From contig NZ_JADNAT010000005.1 in assembly GCF_015550425.1 (NCBI RefSeq), positions 132,852 through 196,851 of the forward strand: a stretch of 64,000 bases of DNA, in the 5' to 3' direction. Shown in pieces: positions 45,058 through 63,711 of the stretch. Made by a program: the position numbers and the translations under genes. This stretch comes from Clostridium sp. 1001275B_160808_H3 (GTDB taxonomy: Bacteria; Bacillota; Clostridia; Clostridiales; Clostridiaceae). Position 1 is the first letter of the stretch. Each line of letters begins with the position of its first letter. The notes beneath the pieces are model-generated. The model was not told the DNA's origin. It saw nothing but the letters and a program-made list of their open reading frames with translations, and searched no databases.

Positions 45058-45133
45058 CTCTAAAAGTTCAAGAGACCTTTGATTATAAGCAATTTATATG
45101 TAAAAAAAAGTTATATTATAAGACCTTTTAATA

Positions 45134-45162: not shown

Positions 45163-45221
45163 TATTATAAATAAATATTAAATTAATTTAGAGTATCGTA
45201 GTTTTAAGGAAAGGAGAGTTT

Positions 45222-45983: not shown

Positions 45984-46191
45984 AGTAGTTAAAAAATTTC
46001 AGTTACTACAAAAGAAGTTTAAAAAAACAATGTTCACAAATATTATCAATAGAATAATTATTAATAGTAATATTATATTAATTAAGTATAATTTTTGTGA
46101 TAAAAAATAATATAAGACTAAAAACTAACTGATACTAAATTAATAAAAGAAGATTTTATAAAAGATAGATATGAAAGGGAGGATTCAATTT

Positions 46192-46803: not shown

Positions 46804-46864
46804 AATAAGCTGAGTAATAAAAGCTTACTATAAATAATATAAACTAAATTTATAAATTAAGATG

Positions 46865-46902
46865 AATCCTGGATATGAGTTTTTCATTCCAGGATTTATT
46901 TA
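46865..46902 (+). terminator. Rho-independent terminator after DUF4489-like protein 1
   Basis: A 9-bp stem AATCCTGGA / TCCAGGATT with a loop of 14 nt is followed by TATTTAAATT. Confidence 0.65.
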
Positions 46903-46971
46903 AATTAAATTTATTATGATAACTAATAAAAAATTATATAATATATAGTTTGGAAAGGAAGTATAAAATTC

Positions 46972-47517: not shown

Positions 47518-47586
47518 TGAAGATATTATTATAAAATATGATTTAATATGTTTTGATTAGAGGATATAAGATAATTATATAAAGTT

Positions 47587-47630
47587 AAATAAGCTCCGGA
47601 TATGGCTTTTCCATACCGGGCTTTATTTAT
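47587..47630 (+). terminator. Rho-independent terminator after DUF4489-like protein 2
   Basis: AAATAAGCTCCGGATATGG pairs (with mismatches and G-U pairs) with CCATACCGGGCTTTATTT around a short CTTTT loop. The tail is AT-rich. The rest of the 344-bp gap (47631-47822) shows nothing recognisable. Confidence 0.65.
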
Positions 47631-47822
47631 ATTTAAACCCTATGGGTTGATTATTGTAGTATTAATTATAAATTGTTTATATAAGTGTAATCTTATATTT
47701 ATATTAGCAAGCACGAAATTTTCTTTATTTTAATATAATGAATAGTAAGTGACTTTATAATATATAAAGTATATCAACCTATATTATTAAAGAATGAAGA
47801 AGATAAATATAATTAAAAATCA

Positions 47823-47847
47823 AAATGTGCAAAAATATAGCACATTT
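47823..47847 (+). promoter_or_regulatory. 5' leader hairpin at the cysteine desulfurase ribosome site
   Basis: A perfect 8-bp stem AAATGTGC / GCACATTT with a 9-nt AT-rich loop ends 3 bases before AGGAGG (47851-47856). It could control translation initiation or simply keep the site open. Confidence 0.4.
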
Positions 47848-47861
47848 ATAAGGAGGGTAAA

Positions 47862-49001
47862 ATGATTTATTTAGATAATGCAGCTACATCATTTCCAAAG
47901 CCATCTAAAGTTTATGAAGAAGTATTAAATTGCATGAAAAATTATTGTGCAAATCCAGGTCGAGGCTCTCATGATATGGCAATTAAATCAGCTTTAAAAA
48001 TTACTGAAACAAGAAGACTAATTTGTGAAATATTCAATATAAAAGATCCATTTAATTTGATTTTTACAAGTAATGCAACAGAAGCTTTAAATATAGCTAT
48101 TAAGGGAATCTTAAAAAATGGAGATCATGTTATTAGTACAGTTATAGAACATAATTCTGTTTTAAGACCCCTTAATTCAATGGAAAAGCAAGGTGTAGAA
48201 ATAACTTTAGTTGGAGTAGATAAAGCTGGCTATGTAAACCCTTTAGATATTAAAAATGAAATAAAAAAGAATACTAAATTAATAATAATTAATCATATTT
48301 CTAATGTATTAGGTAGTATTCAAGATATTACTGCTATAGGTAAGATATCAAGAGAAAAAGAAGTTATATTTATGGTAGATGCATCTCAAAGTGCTGGAAT
48401 TATACCAATTGATGTAGAAGATTCATGTATAGATTTATTGGCTTTTCCTGGACATAAGGGATTGCTTGGTCCACAAGGAACAGGAGGATTATTTATAAGG
48501 GATGGAGTAAAGTTAAGTAATTTTAAGGAAGGGGGAACAGGGAGTAATTCACATTTTATGATTCAGCCAGATTTTATGCCTGATAAGTTCGAAAGTGGAA
48601 CTTTAAATACTCCAGGTATCGCAGGATTATGTGAAGGATTAAAATTCATACAAAGAGTTGGTATAGATAATATAAAAAAATCAGAAGATGAGTTGATGGA
48701 ATATTTTCTAAAGGAAATAAAAAAGCTTTCTTATATTAAAATATATGGAAGTGATTCTTTAAATGAAAGAAGTGCTGTAATTTCTTTTAATATAGATGGA
48801 ATTGATGCATCTGTTGTGGGTGAAGAATTGAATGAGTATGGAATTGCTGTTAGAACAGGATATCATTGCACTCCATTAATACATGATATTATTGGAACTG
48901 AATATGCAGGTACAGTTAGGGTAAGTCCGGGATGTTTTAATATTCTTCAAGATATAGATGAATTATTGGAAGCTATTAGAAAAATATATAAGTCACATTA
49001 A
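47862..49001 (+). CDS. Cysteine desulfurase family protein (EF2568/CsdB-like)
   Basis: A 379-residue class V aminotransferase. It starts MIYLDNAATSFPKP, binds PLP by Lys199 in FPGHKGLLGPQGTGG, and the catalytic-type Cys336 is in VRTGYHCTPLIH. It resembles the cysteine desulfurase subfamily found next to selenium-cofactor genes (SelD, YqeB, YqeC) in Firmicutes; the activity is release of sulfur or selenium from cysteine or selenocysteine to a carrier. A DUF3343 protein, a proposed carrier from the same context, is encoded at 54001-54270. It is separated by spore-like genes on both sides. Confidence 0.88.
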   Translation: MIYLDNAATSFPKPSKVYEEVLNCMKNYCANPGRGSHDMAIKSALKITETRRLICEIFNIKDPFNLIFTSNATEALNIAIKGILKNGDHVISTVIEHNSVLRPLNSMEKQGVEITLVGVDKAGYVNPLDIKNEIKKNTKLIIINHISNVLGSIQDITAIGKISREKEVIFMVDASQSAGIIPIDVEDSCIDLLAFPGHKGLLGPQGTGGLFIRDGVKLSNFKEGGTGSNSHFMIQPDFMPDKFESGTLNTPGIAGLCEGLKFIQRVGIDNIKKSEDELMEYFLKEIKKLSYIKIYGSDSLNERSAVISFNIDGIDASVVGEELNEYGIAVRTGYHCTPLIHDIIGTEYAGTVRVSPGCFNILQDIDELLEAIRKIYKSH

Positions 49002-49057
49002 TAAAAAACTAATACATATATGATTATATATGTAATAAACATTAGGATGTGAAAGTT

Positions 49058-50785
49058 ATGGAATCTTGCAATAACTCAATGTATATTAATCAAGTAGACA
49101 ATCCTAGCGATGATGAAAGATATAATATGCTTGAATATATACTAAAGAATCAAAAAAGAGTAAATGATATAGATAATATAGTCGAATTAATGAGCCCACC
49201 TACAGATATAACTAATATATGCCCAAGTGGTTATGCAAAAGGCATAAAAGTAGCAATAATTGGCGCAGGAGAAGCAGGTTTATCAGCTGCATTTGAATTA
49301 AGGAAGATAGGATGTGATATTACATTATTTGAAGCGAGCCAGAGAATAGGAGGGAAAGTTTACACTTATTATTTTGATAGAAAAAATAGAAAATATGGTG
49401 AGCTTGGAGAATTTAGCATACCAATATCACATTATACAACATGGCATTATATTAATCTTTTCAATCTTGAGACTAAACCTTTCGTAAATAATAATAATAA
49501 TTCCTTATTTTATATTAGAGGAGAAAAGGCATTAAATGATCAAAAGGGAAAACAAGTATCAAAAAATATATATCCAAAGTTTGAGTTATCAAATAGTGAT
49601 AAAAAGAAGTTAAAAGAACAAGTAGATAAAGAATTTTATAAAGAGTATTTAGAATCTCTTACCCCTGAAGAGAGAAGAGAATTACTAGAAATTAAAGATA
49701 AATATTCAGAAAAAATAGTGAAAATAGATAAATTAAGTTATAGAAAAGCATATGAAAATGCTGGATTTAGTGAAGAAGCAATATCAATGCTAGGATATCT
49801 TGATGGAAGTAAACAATTTTTTCAACTTGGTCTTATGGAAATGTTACAAAGATATTATACAGCAGATTCAGAATTTAATTATTATATTAAAGATGGAATG
49901 ATAAATTTACCTCTTTCCTTATATGAAGCTCTGTTCGATGAAAATGAGAAAATATACAAGAATATTGATAAAGATAAATTAGGAAAAGTAAAAGTGAAAA
50001 TGAGAACACCAGTTGAAGGAATATATGGTTTAGAAATAGAAGATAGAATTGTTCTTAAGTATGTAGAAAGAGAAATGAATAGGGAAGTTTTAGAAAGTTT
50101 TGATTATGTAATATGCACAGCACCTTTTCAAAGTTTAAGACGTATGAATATAGAGCCGAGTTTTAGTTCTAAAAAAATACGTGCAATAAATGAAATGAAT
50201 TATGAAACATCAGAAAAAATATATTTTTATCTCAAGGAAAGGTTTTGGGAGATGGGAGGTAAATCAAAAGGAATAGTAGGAGGAAGAACATTTACTGATA
50301 TTCCACTAGTTTCTATTTATTATCCATCAGATCATTCAGAATCTGTAAGTGATAAGATTGACAGCTATATACTAAAACCAGGTACAAGTCCTAAGGAACC
50401 TGGGGTATTACTTGTAAGCTATAGTTGGGGTAAAGAATCAATGTTGCTTGGAAGTGAAAACACAGAACTACAAATTAGTGACGCTATAAGATATATAGAA
50501 AAAATTCATGATCTACCATTACATTATATTGATGATAATTTAATTGACTATAAGTCATTGATATGGTCTGATGTTCAATATATATGGGGATCAGGGGCAT
50601 TATCAAAACCTGAAGATAAAATATTATATTCTTATGGAGCAAAAATGCCAGAAATGAATAATAGAGTATTTTTTGCAGGAGAGCATATATCTCAAAAACA
50701 TGGAACTCAGCAAGGTTCTCTTCAAAGTGGTATGATTGCAGCTAATGAAGTTGCTGAAAAAATATTGTTAAATGATAAAGTATAG
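49058..50785 (+). CDS. FAD-dependent amine oxidase (L-amino-acid oxidase-like)
   Basis: A 575-residue flavoprotein. The FAD motif is VAIIGAGEAGLSAAFELRKIGCDITLFEAS (about residues 68-97), followed by RIGGKVYTYYF and the family C-terminal motif VFFAGEHISQKHGTQQGSLQSGMIAANEVA. It matches flavin amine oxidases that act on amino acids or polyamines; in an anaerobe O2 is not the likely acceptor, so a dehydrogenase or a radical-free oxidase role is open. The ATG at 49058 is preferred over the GTG at 49049, which lies within the purine-rich ribosome region. It starts 56 bases after the cysteine desulfurase gene and may be co-transcribed. Confidence 0.85.
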   Translation: MESCNNSMYINQVDNPSDDERYNMLEYILKNQKRVNDIDNIVELMSPPTDITNICPSGYAKGIKVAIIGAGEAGLSAAFELRKIGCDITLFEASQRIGGKVYTYYFDRKNRKYGELGEFSIPISHYTTWHYINLFNLETKPFVNNNNNSLFYIRGEKALNDQKGKQVSKNIYPKFELSNSDKKKLKEQVDKEFYKEYLESLTPEERRELLEIKDKYSEKIVKIDKLSYRKAYENAGFSEEAISMLGYLDGSKQFFQLGLMEMLQRYYTADSEFNYYIKDGMINLPLSLYEALFDENEKIYKNIDKDKLGKVKVKMRTPVEGIYGLEIEDRIVLKYVEREMNREVLESFDYVICTAPFQSLRRMNIEPSFSSKKIRAINEMNYETSEKIYFYLKERFWEMGGKSKGIVGGRTFTDIPLVSIYYPSDHSESVSDKIDSYILKPGTSPKEPGVLLVSYSWGKESMLLGSENTELQISDAIRYIEKIHDLPLHYIDDNLIDYKSLIWSDVQYIWGSGALSKPEDKILYSYGAKMPEMNNRVFFAGEHISQKHGTQQGSLQSGMIAANEVAEKILLNDKV

Positions 50786-50812
50786 TTTTTTTAATTAATT
50801 TTGATATTTATC

Positions 50813-50860
50813 ATAAAAATAATGACCTACATCTTTGAGTGAAGGTCATTATTTTTATAA
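50813..50860 (+). terminator. Rho-independent terminator after the amine oxidase gene
   Basis: A 15-bp perfect stem ATAAAAATAATGACC / GGTCATTATTTTTAT. Confidence 0.85.
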
Positions 50861-50923
50861 TAAATAATTTACTTTATTTCTATTTATTAAGTACTTTTAT
50901 TAAAGTATATAAATATTGTAAAA

Positions 50924-50978
50924 GGTGATGATAGATAAAACTAAATAGATATATAAAGATATTTAAGCTGTCATCACC
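50924..50978 (-). terminator. Candidate terminator of the minus-strand MSINFKKF paralog
   Basis: GGTGATGATAG pairs with CTGTCATCACC (one G-U) around a 33-base loop. Read on the minus strand it is followed by TTTTAC. A further 16-bp perfect palindrome CTACTAAATTTAGTAG lies at 50987-51002. Confidence 0.55.
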
Positions 50979-51042
50979 ATTTATAACTACTAAATTTAGT
51001 AGACATACTAAACACTTTTAGTTATATTGAAGAGAACAATTT

Positions 51043-51807
51043 TTATTCATCAACATCATCATCGTCATCATCATAGCAGTCAGGGAATAGTGGTTCTAAA
51101 TTTTGATCTGGATAGAACTTAGGAATAGGAGCTTTATCGAATATTTCGCATGGATCTTCATCTGGTTCATCCTCACAAATAACTTTAGGAACAGGACAAT
51201 AATCATATGCAGGAATTAGTAGTTGTACAAGAAGTTCACATTTTACTACAATATAGTAACCTAAAGTGATATCTAAAACTTCATCCCCGTTTTTATCTTT
51301 AAGTATTTCGCCGTGTAGTGCTTCTGCAACCATTTCAAGTCTTATAATGTTAGAGTCTTCTTCTAGGTCAGTACTAGCTGAAATTTGAGCGATTGAATCA
51401 GGACAATAGAACTTTCCAATTACATCAGTTCTATTAATCTCATAAAATTCACTCTTAGTTTTACCATCACAATCAAGATAATCAGCATAGAAAGAAATCA
51501 TGTATTTAAGCACTACTTTTTTAAATCCACGTTTACCTTTAAGTGGTATCTTTTCTACTGAAAGAAGTGTTACATTGAAGTCTCTACTAGAAATATATCT
51601 CTTAGGAGCAACTAGGGGATCACTTCTTAATTCACAATCAGTTGTATTTGTGTCTGGACCTCCACAATATACAAGACATTTTTTAATTAAACATTGATCA
51701 AACACCTTAGGTACTTCAATACAAACTAACTCCGCAGGATCAGGTAAACGTCCTTGCTTATTTACTAGACCTGGACGTGGTACGAATTTTTTGAAGTTAA
51801 TGGACAT
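51043..51807 (-). CDS. Predicted spore-surface protein, MSINFKKF family copy 2
   Basis: A 254-residue paralog of the protein at 45222-45983, sharing nearly the whole N-terminus (MSINFKKFVPRPGLVNKQG...LVCIEVPKVFDQCLIK) and the core (LGYYIVVKCEL.VQLLIPAYDYCPVP). The C-terminus has an acidic stretch ending DDDDDDVDE. It is inverted relative to the first copy, about 5 kb away. The ATG at 51807 follows GGAGGATAT; the longer frame from 51840 is not used. The promoter motif CACC-N15-CATATCATG lies at a matching distance. The same spore-surface role is inferred. Confidence 0.65.
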   Translation of the reverse strand: MSINFKKFVPRPGLVNKQGRLPDPAELVCIEVPKVFDQCLIKKCLVYCGGPDTNTTDCELRSDPLVAPKRYISSRDFNVTLLSVEKIPLKGKRGFKKVVLKYMISFYADYLDCDGKTKSEFYEINRTDVIGKFYCPDSIAQISASTDLEEDSNIIRLEMVAEALHGEILKDKNGDEVLDITLGYYIVVKCELLVQLLIPAYDYCPVPKVICEDEPDEDPCEIFDKAPIPKFYPDQNLEPLFPDCYDDDDDDVDE

Positions 51808-51860
51808 ATAATATCCTCCTTTTAAAATAATAAAAAACAAAAATTTATTTACTCACATTA

Positions 51861-51888
51861 CATGATATGTAAGAAGATAAAAGAGGTG
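51861..51888 (-). promoter_or_regulatory. Sigma-K-like promoter of the inverted MSINFKKF paralog
   Basis: Read on the minus strand: CACC (51888-51885), 15 bases, then CATATCATG (51869-51861). It repeats the layout found 5' of the paralog at 45.2 kb. The rest of the 295-bp gap (51808-52102) holds AT-rich sequence; an AAACC-N15-ATAATAG element near 52032-52058 could be a weaker site of the same kind for the next gene. Confidence 0.65.
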
Positions 51889-52102
51889 ATATTAAAAAAT
51901 ATATATAAAATAAATTTTTTACTCCATAAAATTGCATAATAATTGCTTATTTTAAATATAATCTTATAGATAGTATAAGTAAGAGAGAAAATAAACGAAT
52001 TAATTGGCTACATTTTATAACTATAATTATTAAACCTTATTATATACGAAGATAATAGAATAAATGGATTTGTATTAGAATTCTATAAAGGGGAGAGTGA
52101 AT

Positions 52103-53902
52103 ATGAGGGATATATATCCATGGATATATTTAGATTGTAAAGAGAACTTGTGGAAGTTTTCTTTAAACAATAATAAAGAGTTAAGCTATGGGATTATGTA
52201 TAAGGAAGGAAAATGGACTAAGGAAATTTTAATTGATACAAAGGTTCTTGGATTTGCTATTTATATTGATGAAAATGAAGGAATACATTTGGTTTATAGC
52301 AATACTAAAGGCGAACTAAGATATTGTACAATGAAGAATAAACAATGGGTAGGAAAAACTATATATCAATTAGATAATAAAGATTTTGAAATAGAAAACT
52401 TGAAAGTTGAAATTATAGGGTCTAATATGCATATCTTCTATTTATTGGTAGGCAATGATGGAAGTGATCATGGAGTATTAATGCATTGCGTATGGAGTGG
52501 ACAAGAAACAACTATTAATAGATTAGCAGATATTATCTTAATTTCTAATCTAAAGGAATACTATTCTATAAATACAAACTATAAGGGCGATATTTATGTA
52601 TTCTTCCTTTCAGATGAAGGAGATGAAATATCTTTAAATTATTGTACTTTTGAAAATAATAGATGGATACAATTAAAAAGGCTCTATGGAATTCAGGGAG
52701 AAGATATAGGATTTGAAGTTGTTATTGATAAGCATGATATTCATATATTAAATAAATCCAGAGAAGGTTTAATATATTCTTTAGATCATGTTTACATAGA
52801 CTCTATTGGGAATGTGAAGGATTTTAAAATATATGAAATTAAAAGTAATTTATTAGAACCTTTATTATTTATTGAAAGTAATAAATTATGTTCTTGTTGG
52901 TTAGAAAATGATAAGATTTTTTATTCGATTTTCAATAAAGATAAATGGGAAGATCCTGTTTACTTTGATAGAGGGAATAATGATACATTGGGAAAATATA
53001 ATGCTTTTATTTGTACTGATAATGATAGGTATATTAAAGAAAAAAAGGTTTATGGAACTGATAATTTAGATATGAAGATATATGACCCAAGTGAATTTTT
53101 AATTACTATGAAAGATTCATTAAGACATGATAAAAGTAAATATGAAGGAAATTCTTATTCTGAAAATGAACTAGTTGAAAGCTTAAAGTCGGAACTATCT
53201 AAAGAAAAAGTAGAAAATAATAACCTAGTGAATAGAATAGCGCATCTAAATTTGAGGTTGCAAAAAAATCAAAAGTTTATGGAGGAATATGAACAACAAA
53301 TAGCTAGAACAATAGAGCAAAAAAGGAAGGCAGAAGAAAATTGTAATGTATTTTTGGAGCTACAAAAAAAGATTCAAAAGGATCTTGAAAATGCAAATAG
53401 TCAGTTATTAGAGATGAGGGAATCAAAAGAAAAACTTGAGGATAGTATGAAAGATTATGAAGATGAAATTATATCACTAAAAAATCAATTAGAATTAGCA
53501 AATGATAAGATTTATAAATTATCATTTGAGCTTAAGGAAATAAATAAAAAAAATCAAGAAGAAAAAGACGCTAGGTTAATAGTAGAAGATAATTTAAAGG
53601 GAATTCTAAAAGAAAATGCTTCAATCATAATAGAAATAACTTTAGTGAAGGAAGAAAATAAAAAAATAATCTCTGAATTAGTAGATAAAAATAAACAATT
53701 AATAGAAGAAAAGGAGTATAAGCTGCAAATAGAAAATAAATTAAAATACTTGGAAGAAGAAAATATGTTAATAAAAGAAGAAACTAGGGTAATAACTGAA
53801 GAAAATAATAGATTAAAAGTAGAATTAGATCTAGAGAGAAACCAATCGGTTATGGATAGGCTACTAAGAAGAAGAGCTAGTAGTAATCAAAATAATTTTT
53901 AA
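52103..53902 (+). CDS. W-repeat (propeller-like) plus coiled-coil protein, copy 1
   Basis: A 599-residue protein without signal peptide. The N-terminal half (about 1-330) has roughly six 50-residue repeats, each with a small strand and a Gly/Asn-rich turn before Trp: KEGKWTKEILID, KNKQWVGKTIYQ, ENNRWIQLKRLYG and NKDKWEDPVYFD are the clearest. This suggests a six-bladed beta-propeller. The second half (about 365-590) is an almost unbroken coiled coil with heptads of L, I, V and charged residues. A tail of RRRASSNQNN follows. A paralog lies at 55827-57398. The ATG at 52103 is used instead of the GTG at 52097. Function unknown; a structural spore protein is inferred from context. Confidence 0.7.
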   Translation: MRDIYPWIYLDCKENLWKFSLNNNKELSYGIMYKEGKWTKEILIDTKVLGFAIYIDENEGIHLVYSNTKGELRYCTMKNKQWVGKTIYQLDNKDFEIENLKVEIIGSNMHIFYLLVGNDGSDHGVLMHCVWSGQETTINRLADIILISNLKEYYSINTNYKGDIYVFFLSDEGDEISLNYCTFENNRWIQLKRLYGIQGEDIGFEVVIDKHDIHILNKSREGLIYSLDHVYIDSIGNVKDFKIYEIKSNLLEPLLFIESNKLCSCWLENDKIFYSIFNKDKWEDPVYFDRGNNDTLGKYNAFICTDNDRYIKEKKVYGTDNLDMKIYDPSEFLITMKDSLRHDKSKYEGNSYSENELVESLKSELSKEKVENNNLVNRIAHLNLRLQKNQKFMEEYEQQIARTIEQKRKAEENCNVFLELQKKIQKDLENANSQLLEMRESKEKLEDSMKDYEDEIISLKNQLELANDKIYKLSFELKEINKKNQEEKDARLIVEDNLKGILKENASIIIEITLVKEENKKIISELVDKNKQLIEEKEYKLQIENKLKYLEEENMLIKEETRVITEENNRLKVELDLERNQSVMDRLLRRRASSNQNNF

Positions 53903-54000
53903 ATATATGGCGCAAATTAGCGCTGAGTAACCTAGAGTATTTTAGAGCATACAATATAAGGAAAAATCGATGAAAATCTAGGAAGTTAAAGGAGAAAATT

Positions 54001-54270
54001 ATGAGATTGGAAGACTATGATTATGTAATGGCATTTACATCTCATTATAGAGCTGTATATATGTATGATAGATTAACTCAAAAGAAAATAGAAGTAAAAT
54101 TAGTTACGGCACCAAATAAGGTTAATATTAGCTGTACACAAGCATTAAAGTTTAAAGAAAAAGATAAAGAGGAAATAGAAAAAGAATTAGCAAAGAATAA
54201 TATATATCCAACTGCAGTATTTAAGGTAATAAAAGAAGGAAAAAAAGAAACTTATGAGTTAATTGAATAA
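54001..54270 (+). CDS. DUF3343 protein (putative sulfur/selenium carrier)
   Basis: An 89-residue protein matching the DUF3343 pattern: a VMAFTSHYRAVYMYDRL start, KLVTAPNKVNISCTQALKF with Cys45, then a short alpha/beta C-terminus. DUF3343 proteins are suggested to carry persulfide or selenide sulfur/selenium and often sit with an EF2568-like cysteine desulfurase, as found at 47862-49001, about 5 kb away. It is flanked by propeller/coiled-coil genes on both sides. The ribosome site is AAAGGAGAAAATT. Confidence 0.8.
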   Translation: MRLEDYDYVMAFTSHYRAVYMYDRLTQKKIEVKLVTAPNKVNISCTQALKFKEKDKEEIEKELAKNNIYPTAVFKVIKEGKKETYELIE

Positions 54271-54331
54271 GGAGAAAATAACTTTATTTAGCTAGAGAAT
54301 TAAGTATTATTAAGCAATTAAAAGGGGGGAA

Positions 54332-55834
54332 GTGGAATCCTTGGTTAATGTAAGTAAAAAGATTATCTATTATGTATCTAACTTAGGTGCTGATAAAGTA
54401 TCTATAATTGATGGAAATAGTTATAGTGTTATAAAAGAAGTTGAAGTTGGTTCTAGGCCTCAAGATATTGTTGTAGATGAAAAAAATAATGTTTATATTG
54501 CAACAGATAGAAATAGTAAAGTTACACTTATTGACCATTTATATAATACTAATAAAACTTGGAGTATGCCTAATAATGGAAGTATAAAATTGGATTCCAT
54601 TTCTCAAAAAATTTATGTTTGTAATACAGAAGAAATATGTATTTATAATATAAGTAGTGGAGAAATACTTGGAAGAATAACAGGATTTATTGCTGCAGAT
54701 AGCATGGAACTTGATAAGAGTAGAAAAAAATTATTTGTACTTGATATTTTTCAAAATGAAATAAAAGTTTATGATACTACAGATTTTAAATTAATTAAAG
54801 AATACAAGGAAGTTGGAAATACTCCAAGCTATATTTTTATGGGAGAAAACGAACGATATTTATATATTTCAAATAAAGGATTAAATAGAGGTTCTTATAG
54901 TGGAAATATCTCTATATTAGATCTTGAAACTGGAAAAATTTCATATATAAATTTCCAAGAAGGATCAAGTATTATTGATTTAGATGGAAATGAAAATTTT
55001 TTATATGCAGCAAATAATGGATTACATAGAATTGAAGTTATAGATATAATAAATAAAAAATGTATAGCGAGTATTAGTACAACTTTGCCAGAATTACAGA
55101 GGATTAGGCTATCTCCTGATGAAAAACTACTTTTAGTAACTAGTAAAAATAGTGAAGGAAAAGGAGTACTTGATAGAATAGATATTTCTAAAAATGTTAT
55201 TTTAGATACTTTCATTTTTGATGAAAAGAATATAGTTCCATATGATATAGGTATTGTTATAGAAAATAAAAAGATAGAAGAAAAAAATTATATTTCTATG
55301 AATTCAAATGATAAGTTGCAATATGAAAATGGAAGCACTATATTAGCAAGGAAAGTTTTATCAACTTACAAAGAAAAGATAAATTTTACCCAAGTATGTA
55401 TGGAAATATCATTGAAAGATGATGAAAGTCTAAGGATAGAAGATATTATTTTTGAAAATTGTAATGTTATAGAAGAAAGCAAAAGTAGAAAAATTTTAGA
55501 GAGTAAAGAGAAGTATTTAATACTAGAGTATGACTTTTATATTCCATACTATATAAAATGTAAAAATCAAAATGAAGAAAAATATATAATTGAAGGAAAG
55601 CTTAAAGGAAAACAAAAAGCCAGATTATATGTTTCAGATTATAAGGAAGGTAACGGAGTAGAATATGTAGTAAAATCATTAACTAAGCTAATAAGTTCTC
55701 CAATAAAAAAAGATAACCTTATTACGTTTGATGTTAGCTCTATAATTTCCACACATGCAATTATAGAGGATCTAGTAGTCATACCATTTTGTAATCGGTG
55801 TATGGAATTTAAGGGAGATATTAGTTATGAATGA
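54332..55834 (+). CDS. YVTN beta-propeller protein with C-terminal spore-coat-like domain
   Basis: A 500-residue protein. The first 300 residues form a YVTN-type propeller (YYVSNLGADKVSIIDGNSYSVIKEVEVGSRPQDIVVDE, ...YLYISNKGL...). The last 190 residues resemble the core of the MSINFKKF proteins: VCMEISLKDDESLRIED, YLILEYDFYIPYYIKCKNQNEEKYIIEGKLKGK and LVVIPFCNRC, mirroring VCIEVPKVFDQ, IILNYVISFYSDY and LLIPAYDYCP. So a propeller is joined to that domain. The GTG at 54332 sits very close to its ribosome site (AAAGGGGGG); a TTG at 54341 is a second option. It overlaps the next gene by 8 bases. Confidence 0.7.
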   Translation: MESLVNVSKKIIYYVSNLGADKVSIIDGNSYSVIKEVEVGSRPQDIVVDEKNNVYIATDRNSKVTLIDHLYNTNKTWSMPNNGSIKLDSISQKIYVCNTEEICIYNISSGEILGRITGFIAADSMELDKSRKKLFVLDIFQNEIKVYDTTDFKLIKEYKEVGNTPSYIFMGENERYLYISNKGLNRGSYSGNISILDLETGKISYINFQEGSSIIDLDGNENFLYAANNGLHRIEVIDIINKKCIASISTTLPELQRIRLSPDEKLLLVTSKNSEGKGVLDRIDISKNVILDTFIFDEKNIVPYDIGIVIENKKIEEKNYISMNSNDKLQYENGSTILARKVLSTYKEKINFTQVCMEISLKDDESLRIEDIIFENCNVIEESKSRKILESKEKYLILEYDFYIPYYIKCKNQNEEKYIIEGKLKGKQKARLYVSDYKEGNGVEYVVKSLTKLISSPIKKDNLITFDVSSIISTHAIIEDLVVIPFCNRCMEFKGDISYE

Positions 55835-57398
55835 AAAAAAATGTGATTGCTTTTTAGTAAGAAATAAAATGAACAGTTTACTAAGATTTTCATATAGCAA
55901 TAGTCTTGGAATATATTATCAGACATTTAGAAATGGGAAATGGCAAGAAAAAGATATTATTTATAAAGAAAGTTTTGAAACTTTTTATGTTATAGAAGAT
56001 TTTAATGGTAATGTAAATGTACTATGTCAGGATGTTTGTGGAGATGTTGTTTTATGTACATTAGATGATAGTAGGTGGAAGTATAAAACTCTACTTCATA
56101 TGAAATATAATGAAATAATGCCCATAGAATTAAAAGCTTTTTTTATAGGGAAAAAGATACATTTTTTATATAATTTAATAAATGAAAATGATGAAACTCA
56201 AATGATAATACATCAACATAATAAGAGATTAAATGATCTAGCACCATCAGAGGTTCTTATTACCTTAGACTGTTACTCAAATCTATCTTATTATATTTCT
56301 CAAAGTTACAATTATTGTGTAGTTTTAATAAATACTATGTCATATGGTATATATAAACTGAGCTCAAGAGTATTTAATATATCTAAAGATCTTTGGGAAA
56401 AAGAAATGATTATATATATATCTAGATTACCTTATAAAGATTTTTCTTTTTGTGTATTAGAAAATAGATGTCATTATCTTATTGTTACTGAAGAGAATAA
56501 TCTTAATGTATTAATTTATCAATATAAAGATATATTAAGTGATAAACAAAAAGAATTACAAAAAAATTTAATATTATTTGAAAATGAAAAAGTTGATTCA
56601 TGTACAATACTAACTTTAGATAAAGTATTATGGGCATTATGGATAAGTGACAAAAAGTTATATGGATGTTTTTCTAAAAACAATGGACAAGACTTTAGTA
56701 ATCCAGCAGTATACAAAATTTTTGAGGATATAATGCCTACCAAAGCTTATTATAAAGAGTTTATAGAAGAAAATAGATATATAGATAATGAAATATATAT
56801 TATTAATTATAATAATGAAGTGAATTTATTTTTACATGAACTTTTGATTGCTAAAGTGGATTTAGATATAGATAGCAACAAGCAAGATGTAGGCTTTGAA
56901 GATATACTTTATGGAAATATAGAAATAAGTTACAAAGATATAGATAATAAAAGCAGAGATTTAATTAGTTTAGATAAGGAAGTAAAAGATAATTATGAAC
57001 ATATTGAAGTTTCTAGTACAGAAAAATTACAAAATGAAATTAAATGTCAAAATGAAAAAATAATAAAGTTAGATAATAAAATAAAAATGTTGAATAATAC
57101 CATAGGTAAACAAAAGAATGAATTAGCAAGTCTAAGATATACCCTTAATAAGGAAAAGGAAAAAGTTTATAGAATTAATAAAGATAATAATAGTTTAAAA
57201 GAAAAAAATGAGTTTTTAGAAAAGAAATTATTATTAAAAGATAAAGAAAAGCTATCACTTGAAAAAAGATTAATAGAAAAGAATAAGGAAAATGAAAATC
57301 TAAAACAAGAAATAAATGAAAAAAACTCTAACAATAAAGATAAAACTAGGGAAGAAAAATTCTCAATAAAAAAATGGATTTTTGATAATAAAGGATAA
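55827..57398 (+). CDS. W-repeat (propeller-like) plus coiled-coil protein, copy 2
   Basis: A 523-residue paralog of the protein at 52103-53902: repeats such as NGKWQEKDIIYK, DSRWKYKTLLH, SKDLWEKEMIIY and NNGQDFSNPAVYK occur in the first 330 residues, and a heptad-rich coiled coil occupies about 400-505. The C-terminus is basic (FSIKKWIFDNKG). No signal peptide. It overlaps the YVTN gene by 8 bases, so the two are translationally coupled. It is probably the last gene of the spore-surface cluster. Confidence 0.7.
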   Translation: MNEKKCDCFLVRNKMNSLLRFSYSNSLGIYYQTFRNGKWQEKDIIYKESFETFYVIEDFNGNVNVLCQDVCGDVVLCTLDDSRWKYKTLLHMKYNEIMPIELKAFFIGKKIHFLYNLINENDETQMIIHQHNKRLNDLAPSEVLITLDCYSNLSYYISQSYNYCVVLINTMSYGIYKLSSRVFNISKDLWEKEMIIYISRLPYKDFSFCVLENRCHYLIVTEENNLNVLIYQYKDILSDKQKELQKNLILFENEKVDSCTILTLDKVLWALWISDKKLYGCFSKNNGQDFSNPAVYKIFEDIMPTKAYYKEFIEENRYIDNEIYIINYNNEVNLFLHELLIAKVDLDIDSNKQDVGFEDILYGNIEISYKDIDNKSRDLISLDKEVKDNYEHIEVSSTEKLQNEIKCQNEKIIKLDNKIKMLNNTIGKQKNELASLRYTLNKEKEKVYRINKDNNSLKEKNEFLEKKLLLKDKEKLSLEKRLIEKNKENENLKQEINEKNSNNKDKTREEKFSIKKWIFDNKG

Positions 57399-57482
57399 AA
57401 TATAGTAACAATATTTAAATTTAAAGAATAAAGTATGAAATTGAGAAAACTAATATATAAAAAATAAAAAGGAGGGAATTGA

Positions 57483-59162
57483 GTGGAATATAATATTTTA
57501 ATTGGTGGAAGTGCTGGGCAAGGACTTGATACATTAAGCGATTTTTTAGAAAAATCAATAAAGAAGTTTGGATTTTATGTTTTTTCAAATAAGGATTATA
57601 TGTCAAGGGTTAGAGGCGGACATAACTTTATACAAATAAGATTTGGAGAAAATAAAATATATTCACATAAGAATGAGGTAGATTTAATACTTGCTTTAGA
57701 TGAAAATACAATCGTATATCATAAAGATAAATTAAAAAATGATGGAATTATAATATCAGATAAGAGCATAAAATTTGAAGATGAAAAAGTTAAAAAGTTG
57801 CCTCTTATAGAAACTGCAAAGAAATTAAGTTTATCTAAGGCATTTACATCAGTAGCAGCAGGAGTAATATTAAAATATTTTTCAATAAGCTTAGATAATA
57901 TTGATAAATACTTTAGTAATAAGCTATCAGAAGATGTAAGAAGTAAAAATATACAAGCAGTTAGATTAGGATATGATTTAATTGAATCAAAGTATAAAAT
58001 GCAAGGAAATGATTTAAGTAATTATATATTAATAAATGGTAATAGCGCTATTGCATTAGGGGCTATTGCTGGAGGATTAGATTTTTACTCTGCATATCCA
58101 ATGACACCGGCAACTAGTATAATGACTTATTTATCTAAAAAACAAGTAGAAACAGGAATGGTTGTTGATCAAGCAGAAGATGAAATAGCAGCTATAAATT
58201 TTGCAATTGGGGCTTCATATGCAGGAGCAAGAGCTATGACTGGAAGTTCTGGTGGTGGAGTTTCATTAATGGTAGAAGCATTTGGCCTTTCAGGTATAAC
58301 AGAAACACCAATAGTTATAGTAGATTCTCAAAGGCCAGGGCCAGCAACAGGGCTTCCAACAAGAACAGAGCAAAGCGATTTAAGCTTTTTATTAACAGCA
58401 TCTCAAGGTGAATTCCCAAGAATATTAATAAGCGTTAGAAATGCTGAAGATGCATTTTATAAAACTGTTAAAGCATTAAATTTAGCTGATAAATATCAAA
58501 CTGTTGTAATCTTATTAACAGACCAATATTTAGCTGATGCAAATATAACAATTCCTAAATATGATTTAGATAATATTAAAATAGAAAGATATATCTCAAA
58601 TGGAGAAGACCTAAAAGAAGATGAGGAATATAAGAGATATAAGGTAACTCAAAGTGGAATATCTCCTAGAATGATTCCGGGTAATTCTAAACATCAAGTA
58701 GTTTTAGTAGATAGTGATGAGCATACCGAAGAAGCACATATAACAGAATCAGCAGAAGTTAGAAATGCGCAAATGGAAAAAAGAATGAAAAAGTTAGAAC
58801 TTATTAAAAAAGATATTGAAGAACCAGAATTTATGGGTAAGGAAGATTTAGAAATTCTATTATTAGGATTTGGATCAACTTATGGAGCATTAAAAGATGC
58901 AGTTGATGAATTAAATAGCCAAGGTAAAAAGGTTGGGGCTTTGAGTTTCGGAGATATATATCCATTACCACAAGAAAGATTAAAAAAATATTCAAAACAA
59001 GCTAAAGAAATTATAAATGTTGAGCAAAACTTTACAGGACAATTAGGTAAGTTAGTAACTCAAGAAACTGGAATATTAATGACCAATAGTATCTTGAGAT
59101 ATGATGGAAGACAAATATGTGGAAGTGATATAGTAATGAAACTAAGAGAGGAGGAGTTTTAA
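57483..59162 (+). CDS. 2-oxoacid:ferredoxin oxidoreductase, fused gamma-alpha subunit
   Basis: A 559-residue protein. Residues 1-180 form the gamma domain (ILIGGSAGQGLDTLSDFLEK, RVRGGHNFIQIRFG). Residues 185-559 form the alpha domain with YPMTPATSIM, the conserved GSSGGGVSLM and SQRPGPATGLPTRTEQSDL. The gamma-alpha fusion with a separate beta subunit is common in KorA/VorA-type enzymes of anaerobes. It oxidatively decarboxylates a 2-oxoacid (2-oxoglutarate, pyruvate or a branched-chain oxoacid) with CoA and ferredoxin. The GTG start follows GGAGGG. The beta gene overlaps by one base. Confidence 0.9.
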   Translation: MEYNILIGGSAGQGLDTLSDFLEKSIKKFGFYVFSNKDYMSRVRGGHNFIQIRFGENKIYSHKNEVDLILALDENTIVYHKDKLKNDGIIISDKSIKFEDEKVKKLPLIETAKKLSLSKAFTSVAAGVILKYFSISLDNIDKYFSNKLSEDVRSKNIQAVRLGYDLIESKYKMQGNDLSNYILINGNSAIALGAIAGGLDFYSAYPMTPATSIMTYLSKKQVETGMVVDQAEDEIAAINFAIGASYAGARAMTGSSGGGVSLMVEAFGLSGITETPIVIVDSQRPGPATGLPTRTEQSDLSFLLTASQGEFPRILISVRNAEDAFYKTVKALNLADKYQTVVILLTDQYLADANITIPKYDLDNIKIERYISNGEDLKEDEEYKRYKVTQSGISPRMIPGNSKHQVVLVDSDEHTEEAHITESAEVRNAQMEKRMKKLELIKKDIEEPEFMGKEDLEILLLGFGSTYGALKDAVDELNSQGKKVGALSFGDIYPLPQERLKKYSKQAKEIINVEQNFTGQLGKLVTQETGILMTNSILRYDGRQICGSDIVMKLREEEF

Positions 59163-60031
59163 TGTTAGATTTAAATTTGTATAAGAGTAATGATGAGATT
59201 GCTTGGTGCCCAGGTTGTGGAAATTTTGGTATATTAGCAGCATTAAAAGAAACTTTAGCAGAGCTTGAATTAAAACCAGAAGATGTAGTTATAGTATCAG
59301 GAATTGGACAAGCCGCTAAAACTCCTCACTATTTAAAAGTAAATGGATTTAATGGACTTCATGGTAGAGCTTTACCACCAGCACAAGCTATAAAAATGGT
59401 TAATAAGAATCTTAAAGTTATTATAAATAGTGGTGATGGAGATTCATATGGTGAAGGCGGTAATCATTTTATTCATAATATAAGAAGAAATGTAGATATG
59501 GTACACCTTGTTCACGATAATCAAATTTATGGATTAACAAAAGGACAAGGCTCTCCTACAACTGCAAAAGGTCAGGTTACTTCTATGCAATTTGAAGGTG
59601 TATATTTAGAGCCAATAAATCCTTTAGCTGTAGCTATCAGTGCTGGAGCAACATTTGTAGCTAGAAGCTTTTCAGGCGATAAAGAGCATTTAAAATCGAT
59701 GATAAAAGCAGCAATGAATCATAATGGATATGCATTAGTAGATATAATGCAGCCATGTGTTGTATTTAATAAAGTAAATACATTTAAATGGTATAAGGAT
59801 AGAATATATAAGTTAGATGATAACTATGATAAAAGTAATAAAATAGAAGCGCTTAAAAAGGCTGAGGAATTTGGTGATGAAGGAATCCCAATAGGTATAA
59901 TATACAAAGATGATACTAAAGAAAGTTACCATGAAGTGCATCCAGTATTAAAGAGTGGAGTAAATTTAATAGATAGAAAATGGGCTGTTAAAGATACTGG
60001 AAAGTTTATAGATGAGTTTTTATATAATTAA
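59162..60031 (+). CDS. 2-oxoacid:ferredoxin oxidoreductase, beta subunit
   Basis: A 289-residue thiamine-diphosphate subunit. CPGCGNFG (Cys16, Cys19) supplies ligands of the [4Fe-4S] cluster, and the ThDP motif is SGDGDSYGEGGNH with the HDNQIYGLTKGQGSPTT loop. It starts with the overlap TAATG of the alpha gene stop, so the two are made in equal amounts. It is the catalytic partner of the gamma-alpha subunit. The oxoacid cannot be decided from sequence; no delta (ferredoxin-like) subunit is present. Confidence 0.93.
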   Translation: MLDLNLYKSNDEIAWCPGCGNFGILAALKETLAELELKPEDVVIVSGIGQAAKTPHYLKVNGFNGLHGRALPPAQAIKMVNKNLKVIINSGDGDSYGEGGNHFIHNIRRNVDMVHLVHDNQIYGLTKGQGSPTTAKGQVTSMQFEGVYLEPINPLAVAISAGATFVARSFSGDKEHLKSMIKAAMNHNGYALVDIMQPCVVFNKVNTFKWYKDRIYKLDDNYDKSNKIEALKKAEEFGDEGIPIGIIYKDDTKESYHEVHPVLKSGVNLIDRKWAVKDTGKFIDEFLYN

Positions 60032-60058
60032 AAGATATGAGTTGTAAATTAATTTTTT

Positions 60059-60098
60059 AAAATAGTAAGTAAATTTAAGTTTTACTTACTATTTTTTT
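60059..60098. terminator. Bidirectional terminator between the oxidoreductase and mnmH
   Basis: A 15-bp stem AAAATAGTAAGTAAA / TTTACTTACTATTTT has T runs on both strands, serving both convergent genes. Confidence 0.85.
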
Positions 60099-60105
60099 AT
60101 GTAAA

Positions 60106-61212
60106 TTATTTTAAGGTTTGAAAAAATTCTGTAACTTCTTTGGAGTTACCTCTAAAAATAATTTTATCTTTTATTTTTTCTAAAGAGTATTTATAAAGAG
60201 GATCATAGTATTCTTTAAGGAATACTTCTATCCAGCCTTTATGTGAATCAATATTATTAGTAGATAATTGATTTTTATAGGCTAAATTAAGTTCGTTTAG
60301 AACTTCTTTAAATCTATCTCCACCAAGCCTTTTCTTTAATCTATCCATGCTTGAGTATATGTAATTGAACCATTCGCTTAATCCAAGCTCATTACCGAAT
60401 TTGTTGATATATTCTATTTGAGAGTCTATAACATATTCTTTTAATGTATTTTCTACACGTTCTTCTAGTGATGCCTCCAAAAATACTACACTTCCGCTAT
60501 GAAAGTAGTTAAAAAAGTCCTGAGGAATAAAATTCTTTCCGATGTTTTTTCCTTCATCCTCAAAAATTATGTGCTTAAATTCATGTTCTGTGCATTTAAT
60601 TAAAGAATATGCTAAATTATTTTCAAAGTTAATTTGTGTAGGTTGAGGATCTGCATGGGAACCAAAAGAGGATCCCCTATGATTAGCTATTCCTTCTAAG
60701 TCTATTGAATTTTCTATTGTTTTTAAAACTATAGTCTTTCCAGAACCTGTGAAGCCTGTTAAAACAATAGGTTTATATTTTTGATTTTCTTTAGATAACG
60801 AATCTATAAGATAATTACGAAATGCCTTATACCCACCATCTAATCTATAAATTTCTCTGCCTAAAGCATCTGTAATCCATTCTTGAGCAATCCTTGAGCG
60901 TGAGCCACCCCTAAAGCAATATAACATAGTAGATGGATTAGATTTTATAAATTCAATCCAAGAATTTAATCTATCTTCTTTGATTTTACCTGATACTAAT
61001 TTATATCCAAGTTTTGTAGCTTCTTCATTTCCATTTTCTTTATAACAAATTCCTATAATATGTCTTTCTTCATTATTTAAAATTGGTGAATTAAAAGAAT
61101 TTAAAAATGCTCCTTTTTCATATTCAATAGGTGCTCGTACATCTATAAGTGGTATGTCTTCTAATACTATTTTTTTAAAATCATTTATTAATGGATATTT
61201 CATATTAATCAT
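60106..61212 (-). CDS. mnmH: tRNA 2-selenouridine synthase
   Basis: A 368-residue MnmH (SelU, YbbB) protein. The N-terminal rhodanese domain has the active Cys99 in YCFRGGSRS, and the second domain has the P-loop GFTGSGKT (153-160) and SSFGSHADPQPTQINFENN. It replaces the sulfur of 2-thiouridine at the wobble position of some tRNAs with selenium from selenophosphate, by way of a geranylated intermediate. This needs SelD, which is not in the window. The ATG at 61212 follows AAGGAAG. Its presence shows the organism likely uses selenium. Confidence 0.93.
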   Translation of the reverse strand: MINMKYPLINDFKKIVLEDIPLIDVRAPIEYEKGAFLNSFNSPILNNEERHIIGICYKENGNEEATKLGYKLVSGKIKEDRLNSWIEFIKSNPSTMLYCFRGGSRSRIAQEWITDALGREIYRLDGGYKAFRNYLIDSLSKENQKYKPIVLTGFTGSGKTIVLKTIENSIDLEGIANHRGSSFGSHADPQPTQINFENNLAYSLIKCTEHEFKHIIFEDEGKNIGKNFIPQDFFNYFHSGSVVFLEASLEERVENTLKEYVIDSQIEYINKFGNELGLSEWFNYIYSSMDRLKKRLGGDRFKEVLNELNLAYKNQLSTNNIDSHKGWIEVFLKEYYDPLYKYSLEKIKDKIIFRGNSKEVTEFFQTLK

Positions 61213-61376
61213 AATTCTTCCTTTTATTTTTGATATTTATTAATTATTACTATTTTTGGTAGGCTTTATTCAATATTATAAAATTTTATGTATATAATTT
61301 GCAATAAAGATTTTGAATTTAATAAATTTTGTTTAAAGTGAGAAAAATAAATAATATGATTACAGTATATATTGAG

Positions 61377-61431
61377 TTATGTGACATAGTCACATAAAAA
61401 TTGTTTTATATGCTGTAGAATAGTCACATAA
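61377..61431. promoter_or_regulatory. Crp/Fnr-like palindrome and half site upstream of the rhodanese gene
   Basis: The palindrome has 9-bp arms TTATGTGAC and GTCACATAA around ATA (61377-61397). A second GTCACATAA half site is at 61423-61431, 34 bases on. A -10-like TAGAAT lies at 61416-61421, so the start would be near 61427, about 40 bases from the palindrome centre, the usual place for a class II Crp/Fnr-type activator. The regulator is not identified. Confidence 0.55.
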
Positions 61432-61469
61432 TCAAAATAGTAAAATTTATTAATAGGAGTGAATGTAGA

Positions 61470-61790
61470 ATGTTTGGTTTATTTAATAAAAATTCAGGAA
61501 AAGTTATAAATGTAAATGATATTGATAATTTAATTGGTAAAATAGATTTAATTGATATAAGAGAACCATACGAATATAGAACTGGAAGTATAAAAAGTGC
61601 AAAAAATATTCCAATGGGGGATCTTCTAAACGATCCAGAGAAATATTTAAATAAGGAGAAAGAATATCATATAGTATGCCAATCAGGAGGAAGAAGTTCA
61701 ACTGCATGTAATAAGCTAAGAAGCCTTGGATTTGATGTAGTTAATGTTGCTGGTGGAGTTGGATCATATGTTGGGAGCAAAAGAAAATAG
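61470..61790 (+). CDS. Single-domain rhodanese-like sulfurtransferase
   Basis: A 106-residue rhodanese domain. The active-site loop is VCQSGGRSSTA with Cys near residue 71, and DIREPYEYRTGSIKSAKNIPMGDL is the family's usual start motif. It moves sulfane sulfur between thiols and can handle persulfides. It is the first of two genes downstream of the palindrome; the CoA-disulfide reductase follows 185 bases later behind a palindromic repeat, so they may be under common control. No signal peptide is present. Confidence 0.9.
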   Translation: MFGLFNKNSGKVINVNDIDNLIGKIDLIDIREPYEYRTGSIKSAKNIPMGDLLNDPEKYLNKEKEYHIVCQSGGRSSTACNKLRSLGFDVVNVAGGVGSYVGSKRK

Positions 61791-61807
61791 CAAATGCTAT
61801 TTTCTAA

Positions 61808-61960
61808 TGGATAATGCACAATGGATAATGAATAATTAAGGAAAAAATTCAGCTATGCTGAATTATAAAAAGTATTAATTATAAAAACTAAAATCGATGA
61901 ATTTTTACAAAAATTATCCATTATTAATTGTTAAGTATCAATTTGGCTGCGTAGCAGCCA
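61808..61960. repeat. Palindromic AT-rich element with two internal hairpins
   Basis: Outer arms ACAATGGATAATGAATAATT (61819-61838) and its inverted match ending at about 61933 agree in 17 of 20 bases. A small hairpin inside the element has a perfect stem, AATTCAGC-TAT-GCTGAATT (61848-61866). A second, GGCTGC-GTA-GCAGCC (61946-61960), lies just beyond the right arm and ends near the ribosome site of the next gene. It resembles the element at 1.9 kb in plan. Confidence 0.65.
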
Positions 61961-61975
61961 CTAGGAGGATTTTGT

Positions 61976-63673
61976 ATGAAGAAGATATTAATAGTTGGTG
62001 GGGTAGCTGGAGGAGCTTCAGCTGCAGCAAGATTAAGAAGATTAAGTGAAGAAGATGAAATAATAATGTTTGAAAAAGGTCCTCATGTATCCTTTTCTAA
62101 TTGTTCATTACCTTATCACTTAAGTGGAATTATTGATGAAGCAGATAAGCTTGTATTAATGAGTCCAGAAAAGTTTAAAGCTCAATATAATATAGAAGCT
62201 AGAGTAAATAGTGAAGTAATATCAATAGATAGAAAAAATAAAGAACTTGAAATAAAAAATGCACAGACAGGAGAAATTTATAGAGAAAATTATGATAAAT
62301 TAATTTTATCACCAGGAGCAAAACCGATAGTACCTAATATTCCAGGAATTGAAAATGTAAATATTTTTACTATTAGAAATGTTGTAGATATAGATAGATT
62401 AAATAAATTTGTTAAAGAGCTTAATACAAAGGAAGTAGCGGTAATTGGCGGTGGATATATAGGAGTGGAAGTTGCTGAAAACTTAAGAGAAGCAGGATAT
62501 GAAGTTTCTTTAATAGAAGCTATGGATCAAATATTAAAGCCATTTGATTACGATATGGTTCAAATATTACATAAAGAAATTTATGATAATGGTATAAATT
62601 TAATTGTTGGAGATAAGGTTTCAAGCTTTGAAGAAGGTAAAGTAGTATTAGCTTCAGGTAAGAAGATTAATGCAAAGGCAGTAGTTATGGCAATTGGTGT
62701 TTCTCCAGAAGTATCATTAGCTAAAGAGGCAGGCTTAGAACTTGGTGAAACTGGAGCTATTAAGACTGATAGGAATTATAAAACTAATGATGATGATATT
62801 TATGCTGTAGGAGATGCAATTGAAGTATATAATGCATTAACACATTCTATGACAAAATTATCACTTGCAGGTCCAGCTCTAAAAGAAGCTAGATCAGTTG
62901 CAGATCATATAAATGGTAAAAGAGGAATAAATAACGGTTATATTGGATCATCTGCTATAAAGGTATTCGATTATAATGCTGCTGCAACAGGATTAAATGA
63001 GTCCTTAATTAAAGTTTTAAATCTGAATATAAAATATGATATTGTAAGACTTATAACTAATGATAAAGTTGGAATAATGCCTGATGCATCACCAGTTCAT
63101 TTTAAACTTATATTTGAAGTTCCAACAGGTAAGGTGTTAGGAGCACAAGCAATAGGTAGAGGTGATGTTGCCAAAAGGGTTGATATAATAGCTACTATTA
63201 TAAAACTTGGAGGAACTGTCGAAGACTTAAAAGACTTGGAACTATGTTATGCGCCACCATATAGTACAGCAAAGGATGTAGTTAACTATGCTGGATATGT
63301 AGCATCAAATTTATTAAATGGAGATTTTAAACAAGTTAATGTTGATAAGATAAGAGATTTAGTTGAAAGTGGAGCTTATATAATAGATGCTAGAGAAATT
63401 AGAGAATATGAAAATGGACATATAAAAGGGGCTAAGAATATTCCTCTTAGTCAGCTTAGAGAAAGAATAAATGAAATACCAAAGGATATTCCTGTTTACA
63501 TACATTGTAGGACTGGTCAAAGAAGTTATAATGCAGTATTAGCATTGCAAAATTTAGGATATAGAAATGTCCATAATATAACTGGAAGTTTTCTAGGTGT
63601 ATCATTTTATGAATATTTTAATGATAAAACAACAGAAAGAGAAAGTATAGTTACACAATATAATTTTAAATAA
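61976..63673 (+). CDS. CoA-disulfide reductase fused to a rhodanese domain
   Basis: A 565-residue fusion. Residues 1-445 form an FAD/NAD(P)H disulfide reductase with VGGVAGGASAAARLRRL, the single active Cys43 in FSNCSLPYHLSG, VAVIGGGYIGVEVAENL and IYAVGDAIEV. The C-terminal rhodanese (about 465-555) has IIDAREIREYENGHIKGAKNIP and the active Cys in YIHCRTGQRSYNA. This CoADR-Rhd architecture reduces CoA disulfide or CoA persulfide, linking sulfane sulfur to CoA thiol. With the single-domain rhodanese it forms a sulfur-handling pair. The ribosome site is AGGAGG. Confidence 0.93.
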   Translation: MKKILIVGGVAGGASAAARLRRLSEEDEIIMFEKGPHVSFSNCSLPYHLSGIIDEADKLVLMSPEKFKAQYNIEARVNSEVISIDRKNKELEIKNAQTGEIYRENYDKLILSPGAKPIVPNIPGIENVNIFTIRNVVDIDRLNKFVKELNTKEVAVIGGGYIGVEVAENLREAGYEVSLIEAMDQILKPFDYDMVQILHKEIYDNGINLIVGDKVSSFEEGKVVLASGKKINAKAVVMAIGVSPEVSLAKEAGLELGETGAIKTDRNYKTNDDDIYAVGDAIEVYNALTHSMTKLSLAGPALKEARSVADHINGKRGINNGYIGSSAIKVFDYNAAATGLNESLIKVLNLNIKYDIVRLITNDKVGIMPDASPVHFKLIFEVPTGKVLGAQAIGRGDVAKRVDIIATIIKLGGTVEDLKDLELCYAPPYSTAKDVVNYAGYVASNLLNGDFKQVNVDKIRDLVESGAYIIDAREIREYENGHIKGAKNIPLSQLRERINEIPKDIPVYIHCRTGQRSYNAVLALQNLGYRNVHNITGSFLGVSFYEYFNDKTTERESIVTQYNFK

Positions 63674-63677
63674 TTCA

Positions 63678-63711
63678 AAAGACTTCAGGAAAATTTCTTG
63701 AAGTCTTTTTC
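63678..63711 (+). terminator. Rho-independent terminator after the CoADR-rhodanese gene
   Basis: A 10-bp stem AAAGACTTCA / TGAAGTCTTT is followed by TTT. Confidence 0.85.

Follow-up and report, generated by a model that had tools for sequence, protein, structure and literature searches.

We analysed a window of 64,000 nucleotides, of which positions 52103-57398 hold four forward-strand genes: A, a gene for an 89-residue putative Se/S carrier, B and C. A sequence-only reading of this DNA had described two paralogs built of W-containing propeller repeats and coiled coils, with a YVTN propeller between them and an overlap of 8 bases, and had proposed a new spore-surface system. The B and C reading frames indeed share 8 bases, and A and C are paralogous by profile comparison; the carrier gene at 54001-54270, which matches PF11823 above its cut-off (E 1.3e-17) and lies close to A in 16/36 loci examined, had been overlooked. 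By hydropathy, A, B and C have neither a signal peptide, as that reading had stated, nor a transmembrane segment.

Gene A (52103-53902, + strand) encodes 599 residues that comprise a propeller, a linker, a long helix and a basic C-terminal motif. In the AlphaFold2 model (mean pLDDT 81.2, pTM 0.56) the propeller occupies residues ~1-320 (52103-53062), and a helix of 236 residues runs from residue 358 to 593 (53174-53881), terminated by the conserved basic motif ELDLERNQSVMDRLLRRR at residues ~573-590. Structural matching of this predicted model identifies the sugar-binding, seven-bladed PLL/PHL lectins as the closest folds to the propeller, at 12 % identity. The propeller seen in the W repeats is thereby retained, and the six blades assigned to it, for which an AlphaFold check had been suggested, are rejected. 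No lectin family matches A up to E 1 in Pfam or NCBIfam, and neither collection gives a family for A. A PDB sequence search with A returns matches to the helix only, all of them coiled coils, a PDB search with the A profile gives no meaningful match, and no relatives of A were found among viral contigs. The basic C-terminal motif recurs in 110/120 homologues among the matches listed, under a loosened pattern adopted only after a first, stricter version had scored 96/120. A is near-identical to a protein of Clostridium sp. D46t1_190503_E9, which places the window in a Clostridium.

Gene B (54332-55834, + strand; 500 aa) combines a YVTN propeller with a second, C-terminal domain that had gone unnoticed. 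The propeller (residues ~7-314) scores 30.3 bits against TIGR02276, whose cut-off is 27.85, and its computed fold is seven-bladed; the YncE equivalog model NF052280 falls far below its cut-off on B. The C-terminal beta domain (residues ~334-485, 55331-55786) is of the type found in P250, the protein of about 250 residues encoded beside A. This homology is transitive, since a head-on comparison of the domain with P250 gives no signal (hhalign, probability 0.2) and the relationship emerges only through the B homologues of five divergent loci (L085-L089), each a fusion of a YVTN propeller and a P250-type domain. In profile comparisons, the P250-type domain of these fused proteins matches P250 at 98.6 % (E 1.1e-15) and the C-terminal domain of B at 98.4 % (E 5.1e-15). 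At E 1e-20, B occurs in 42 of 194 family genomes, 39 of them with A, and is missing from 22 of the 61 A genomes. In one of the five loci, the N-terminal part of a collagen-like ORF (L085:1209-2792) matches CBM96 (PF24517, E 3.2e-20), and an A-type gene is nearby.

Gene C (55827-57398, + strand; 523 aa) is, as judged from aligned sequence profiles, a paralogue of A. The coiled coils ascribed to both paralogs are borne out in A by the modelled helix; the corresponding part of C is coiled-coil-like and shorter. Most full-length relatives of C share the conserved end FSxxKWxF, and the gene is missing from several loci and has lost its rod in two relatives.

Divergent from A lies P250b (51043-51807, - strand; 254 aa, 12 Cys), and a second copy, P250a (45222-45983, + strand; 253 aa, 9 Cys), is 77 % identical to it. 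The arrangement recurs in all of the 16 A loci from titled genome records (16/16). Among 194 related genomes of the family, A is present in 61, P250 in 65 and both in 60, which leaves one A genome in 61 without P250; these genomes are not independent of one another, which applies equally to the promoter and neighbourhood counts given below. Where A and P250 matches share a contig, the two are divergent in 55/56 genomes, 51 of them with the genes within 1 kb, and three of the 55 (G010, G055, G090) owe their P250 match to the domain of a fused B. Pfam and NCBIfam give no family for P250, and PDB sequence searches with P250 and with its profile yield no meaningful match. An identity with SPOCS/SipL was considered and rejected: P250 has no Pfam SipL match, and six SipL proteins compared with P250, fused B and B give hhalign probabilities of 0.2, 0.1 and 1.7 %.

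A candidate identity for this pair comes from the csxA locus. According to the available portions of one study (PMC7333573), csxA of C. sporogenes (CLOSPO_00498) sits between zapA and a U32-peptidase gene, in the company of genes for collagen-like proteins and a glycosyltransferase, a Cys-rich ORF and a divergent 'highly conserved' ORF, which those portions draw but neither name nor analyse, giving no function or fold. The same portions report that csxA and its partner are intact in C. botulinum Hall and Langeland, in which the bcl genes are not, and that the partner is retained where collagen-like genes are broken or lost. In four loci of relatives (L086, L092, L094, L097) the P250/A pair is flanked by zapA and U32-peptidase genes; Pfam supports ZapA above its cut-off in L092 and L097 and U32 in L094 and L097, the remaining assignments in L086, L092 and L094 are NCBIfam matches below cut-off, and L086 carries its P250-type domain within a fused B. 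Because these loci hold the pair where csxA has been mapped, and given the neighbours found in relatives, P250 is probably the exosporium lattice protein CsxA, with A probably as its unnamed, highly conserved divergent partner.

CsxA is characterised by self-assembly into a hexagonal sheet. The published protein has about 299 residues and 25 Cys (PMC4942563), against 253 and 254 residues and 9 and 12 Cys in the P250 proteins of the window. The Cys count reaches 28 among P250 relatives (L099). A hunt for a CsxA of 299 residues and 25 Cys led to two candidates with 22 Cys (L112, L113), which are paired with C-type proteins and are not certain to represent the C. sporogenes locus. Expanded arrays were also seen, with three P250 genes amid several DUF4489-like genes in one locus (L100) and two amid short Cys-containing ORFs in another (L110).

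In relatives, P250 and A are found near genes for collagen-like proteins, glycosyltransferases and the exosporium family CsxC. The locus also occurs in the solventogenic C. saccharoperbutylacetonicum. In C. tyrobutyricum (L016), A is flanked by two P250 genes behind pheT-like and zapA genes, two glycosyltransferase genes (PF00534, PF00535) lie beside the pair, and the next ORF carries BclA_C (PF18573, E 1.6e-21) and Collagen matches. The available portions of PMC7333573 describe nearly identical exosporium lattice maps in C. tyrobutyricum and C. puniceum. A CsxC-family gene (NF045794, E 8e-56) adjoins P250 in L094. The search for collagen and CsxC genes covered 57 of the 61 A genomes. For CsxC, 50 places in 41 genomes among the matches listed entered the count, and the gene lies no more than 3 kb from P250 in at least 6 of the 41, one of these six matches being below the family cut-off, against an expectation of 0.07. 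A collagen gene stands no more than 10 kb from A or P250 in at least 7 of 38 genomes, counted over 65 collagen places among the matches listed, where 0.31 would be expected; 11/57 A genomes have no collagen match at E 1e-4, and none appears in the close relative G001 among the matches listed.

In the window itself the cluster does not lie between zapA and a U32-peptidase gene, and the ORFs listed around it include no collagen-like, glycosyltransferase or CsxC gene. The Cys-rich DUF4489-like neighbours reported earlier are confirmed as PF14879 proteins with 16 Cys (46171-46803, + strand, E 6.2e-34) and 13 Cys (46972-47517, + strand, E 2e-40); DUF4489 occurs in 85/194 family genomes. SpoIVA is present in 185/194, including all 61 with A (chance 0.03), a co-occurrence that says little because nearly all genomes have SpoIVA. 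Rfam gives no match over 44000-64000. A flavin amine oxidase gene (PF01593, E 3.8e-44) at 49049-50785 adjoins the cluster, as it does in seven loci, and possibly encodes a spore enzyme. Genes of sulphur/selenium type also accompany the exosporium genes. Besides the putative carrier gene at 54001-54270, they comprise an aminotransferase class-V gene (Aminotran_5, Pfam) at 47862-49001, presumably cysteine desulfurase-like and of a kind present in 14/36 loci, and a rhodanese-domain gene (Rhodanese, Pfam) at 60106-61212, which we take to be MnmH.

Sigma-K-type promoter elements precede both P250 genes of the window, as the sequence-only reading had noted: at 45135-45162 (+ strand) ahead of P250a, with CAC(C)AC at 45135 and CATAACATG at 45154-45162, and at 51861-51888 (- strand) ahead of P250b, with CACCTCTT ... 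CATATCATG. The available portions of a C. difficile study cite CATATAAT as a sigma-K -10 box and describe sigma-E and sigma-K promoters as having similar -10 boxes and -35 elements of ATA and AC, respectively (PMC3789822). The element AC-N15-18-CATAnnnTR is found upstream of 36/46 P250 genes, compared with 41/439 controls, and upstream of none of 31 A genes (0/31). A second pattern, ATA-N15-17-[AC]ATATAAT, precedes 19/31 A genes compared with 7/415 controls, and in 15 of these 19 its -10 part lies 27-32 bases ahead of the start. Since the patterns were chosen after upstream regions had been inspected (24 of the 46 for P250, all 31 for A), the Fisher values of 5e-24, and 7e-18 against AT-rich controls, are descriptive. 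With its -35 ATA and shared -10, the A element may be of sigma-E type, and so earlier than sigma-K. We keep this assignment tentative because the ATA-N16-[AC]ATATAAT-type element is absent from the A gene of the window and from its closest relatives (L001, L002), and because the first base of its -10 part departs from the consensus.

The pair extends beyond the family. A wider P250 profile matches 90/206 family genomes and 223/371 genomes drawn from class Clostridia. The best 30 loci from these 223 genomes were examined, and one had no usable ORF. A divergent ORF lies no more than 600 bases from the P250-like gene in 17 of the 29 remaining best loci; it is of A/C type in 14 and unrelated or unassigned in 3, and 12/29 have no such ORF. 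Among the 19 best loci outside the 206 genomes (G424 excluded), an A/C-type partner is present in 7, an unrelated ORF in 2 and no divergent ORF in 10. The seven partners had first-pass E values of 3e-7 to 5e-26, the iterated A/C profile used class-wide containing its own hits. On the evidence of these partners beside P250-like genes outside the 206 family genomes, sequence comparison dates the pair as older than the family, within class Clostridia, with a large share of P250-like genes lacking a partner. In G424 (L121, L152) the order of A, B, P250 and a Cys-rich ORF is unchanged, and the pair is also present in two loci chosen by hand (L148, L149). A distinct P250-like group (L130-L136, L139; start ...GPKIEAGQILNP...) is without a divergent partner within the short loci examined. 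In L106 and L127, the partner's place beside the P250-like gene is taken by a different ORF, about 420 aa long (...KDLNII...), that matches none of the A/C profiles.

Gene neighbourhood, co-occurrence and promoters together give good support to the spore-surface, or exosporium, role that the sequence-only reading had proposed for the cluster. We infer the presence of A, B, C and P250 on the spore, as well as the rod assembly, docking partners, oligomeric state and functions proposed here. On balance we favour the explanation that the cluster represents a csxA-type exosporium locus, with A, B and C as undescribed partner proteins of its lattice protein. Weighing against it are the Cys counts of the P250 copies in the window, the missing neighbours there, the lack of the A promoter element in its A gene, the patchy distribution of B and C, the P250-like loci devoid of an A/C-type partner and the absent signal between the C-terminal domain of B and P250. 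Under this explanation P250, as probable CsxA, would form a disulphide-linked basal sheet, and would do so late in the mother cell given its sigma-K-type promoter. A, probably made in the mother cell since it has no signal peptide, would act as a rod-and-head tie, in which the basic C-terminal peptide would fix one end of a helical rod, whose 236 residues would measure about 35 nm if straight, and the lectin-like propeller would dock the opposite end to the sheet itself or to sheet-borne glycans. C would be a second, shorter tie, and B would be a YVTN propeller set into the sheet through its own P250-type domain. A broader reading, which we offer tentatively and with some doubt, is that the divergent pair of sheet protein and propeller-rod protein forms an ancient core of two genes for the exosporium of clostridia, the rod protein being the missing factor by which the sheet is tied to the spore or its assembly is ordered. 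If so, a propeller-rod protein would do the job of unrelated Bacillus proteins, and the pair would have been kept in several Clostridia families.

The propeller of A might instead act as a functional lectin and hold collagen-like nap proteins by their glycans, making A a nap anchor that replaces ExsFA. The closest folds are sugar-binding lectins, and several relatives have collagen-like and glycosyltransferase genes close to the pair; in the available portions of PMC7333573, moreover, clostridia lack an ExsF homologue and the anchoring of BclA to the CsxA layer is described as not known. Against this stands the identity of 12 % to those lectins, and any sugar site in A is putative. The retention of csxA and its partner in strains Hall and Langeland despite loss of the bcl genes, together with the 11 A genomes devoid of a collagen match, argues against nap anchoring as the sole role of A, and we consider this alternative as a whole unlikely. 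That A and C are mother-cell-only morphogenetic scaffolds, which order or deliver the sheet protein and are not lasting surface parts, would agree with the sigma-E-like element upstream of most A genes, earlier than sigma-K, with the lack of a sigma-K-type element there and with a long helix bearing a fixed end motif. This possibility, too, strikes us as quite unlikely: the element begins its -10 part with a non-consensus A and is absent from the lineage of the window, and B, at least, seems from its P250-type domain to be built into the sheet. The PF11823 and aminotransferase class-V genes that recur near A could also be read as signs of a module that is cytoplasmic or vegetative, possibly tied to these Se/S genes, but the pairing of A with P250 is far tighter, and the sigma-K-type elements, the csxA position and the nearby CsxC and collagen genes all point to the spore, so that we regard it as very improbable that A, B and C are not spore proteins.

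Our literature search, which covered open-licence papers without their supplements, found no description of head-plus-rod proteins with the A/C architecture, and the available portions of the sporulation literature on C. beijerinckii and solventogenic clostridia contain nothing on the A, B, C or P250 genes. No name or function for the csxA partner or for P250 was found in the literature, Pfam or NCBIfam. The claim of a new system is not supported, since elsewhere the pair occupies the csxA locus set out in the available portions of PMC7333573, although components of the locus appear to be undescribed; the observation behind that claim is partly confirmed and its interpretation partly supported.

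Compared with known proteins, the predicted propeller of A shares seven blades with the PLL/PHL lectins of Photorhabdus, which bind sugars at sites with a tryptophan between blades. A differs from them in its long rod, its lack of any sign of secretion and its divergent sequence, and any sugar binding by it is putative. B differs from YncE/YVTN propeller proteins in having no signal peptide and an added P250-type domain. B also resembles F-Anchor-3 of the F-ENA fibres, whose CsxA-like domain has been proposed, in the available portions of a preprint (PMC11952670), to set the protein into the CsxA lattice. Both would thus use a lattice-type domain as an insertion device, F-Anchor-3 bearing DUF4183 and DUF11 domains and holding fibres where B has a YVTN propeller. 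ExsFA/BxpB of the Bacillus cereus group links basal sheet and nap, and A is at most a possible analogue of it. A further close counterpart is the csxA locus of C. sporogenes and C. botulinum group I, which comprises CsxA, BclA, BclB and CsxC (available portions of PMC7333573 and PMC4942563). In common with it are a Cys-containing sheet protein divergent from a conserved ORF, the zapA-U32 position in four relatives, and collagen-like, glycosyltransferase and CsxC neighbours in relatives of the window. The cluster in the window differs in lying elsewhere and in having two P250 copies, B, C, two DUF4489 genes and fewer P250 Cys. The locus is thus already known; what appear to be new are the partner's architecture, the occurrence of this partner outside the family and the domain link between B and P250. 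A fold, with a lectin-like head and a long rod, is now predicted for the probable csxA partner, for which no name or function was found. Together with a second propeller joined to the lattice-type domain and promoter elements of mother-cell type, this fold opens to test how the exosporium of clostridia is attached and assembled, and A and C may supply the ties, so far missing, by which the spore shell is built or held.
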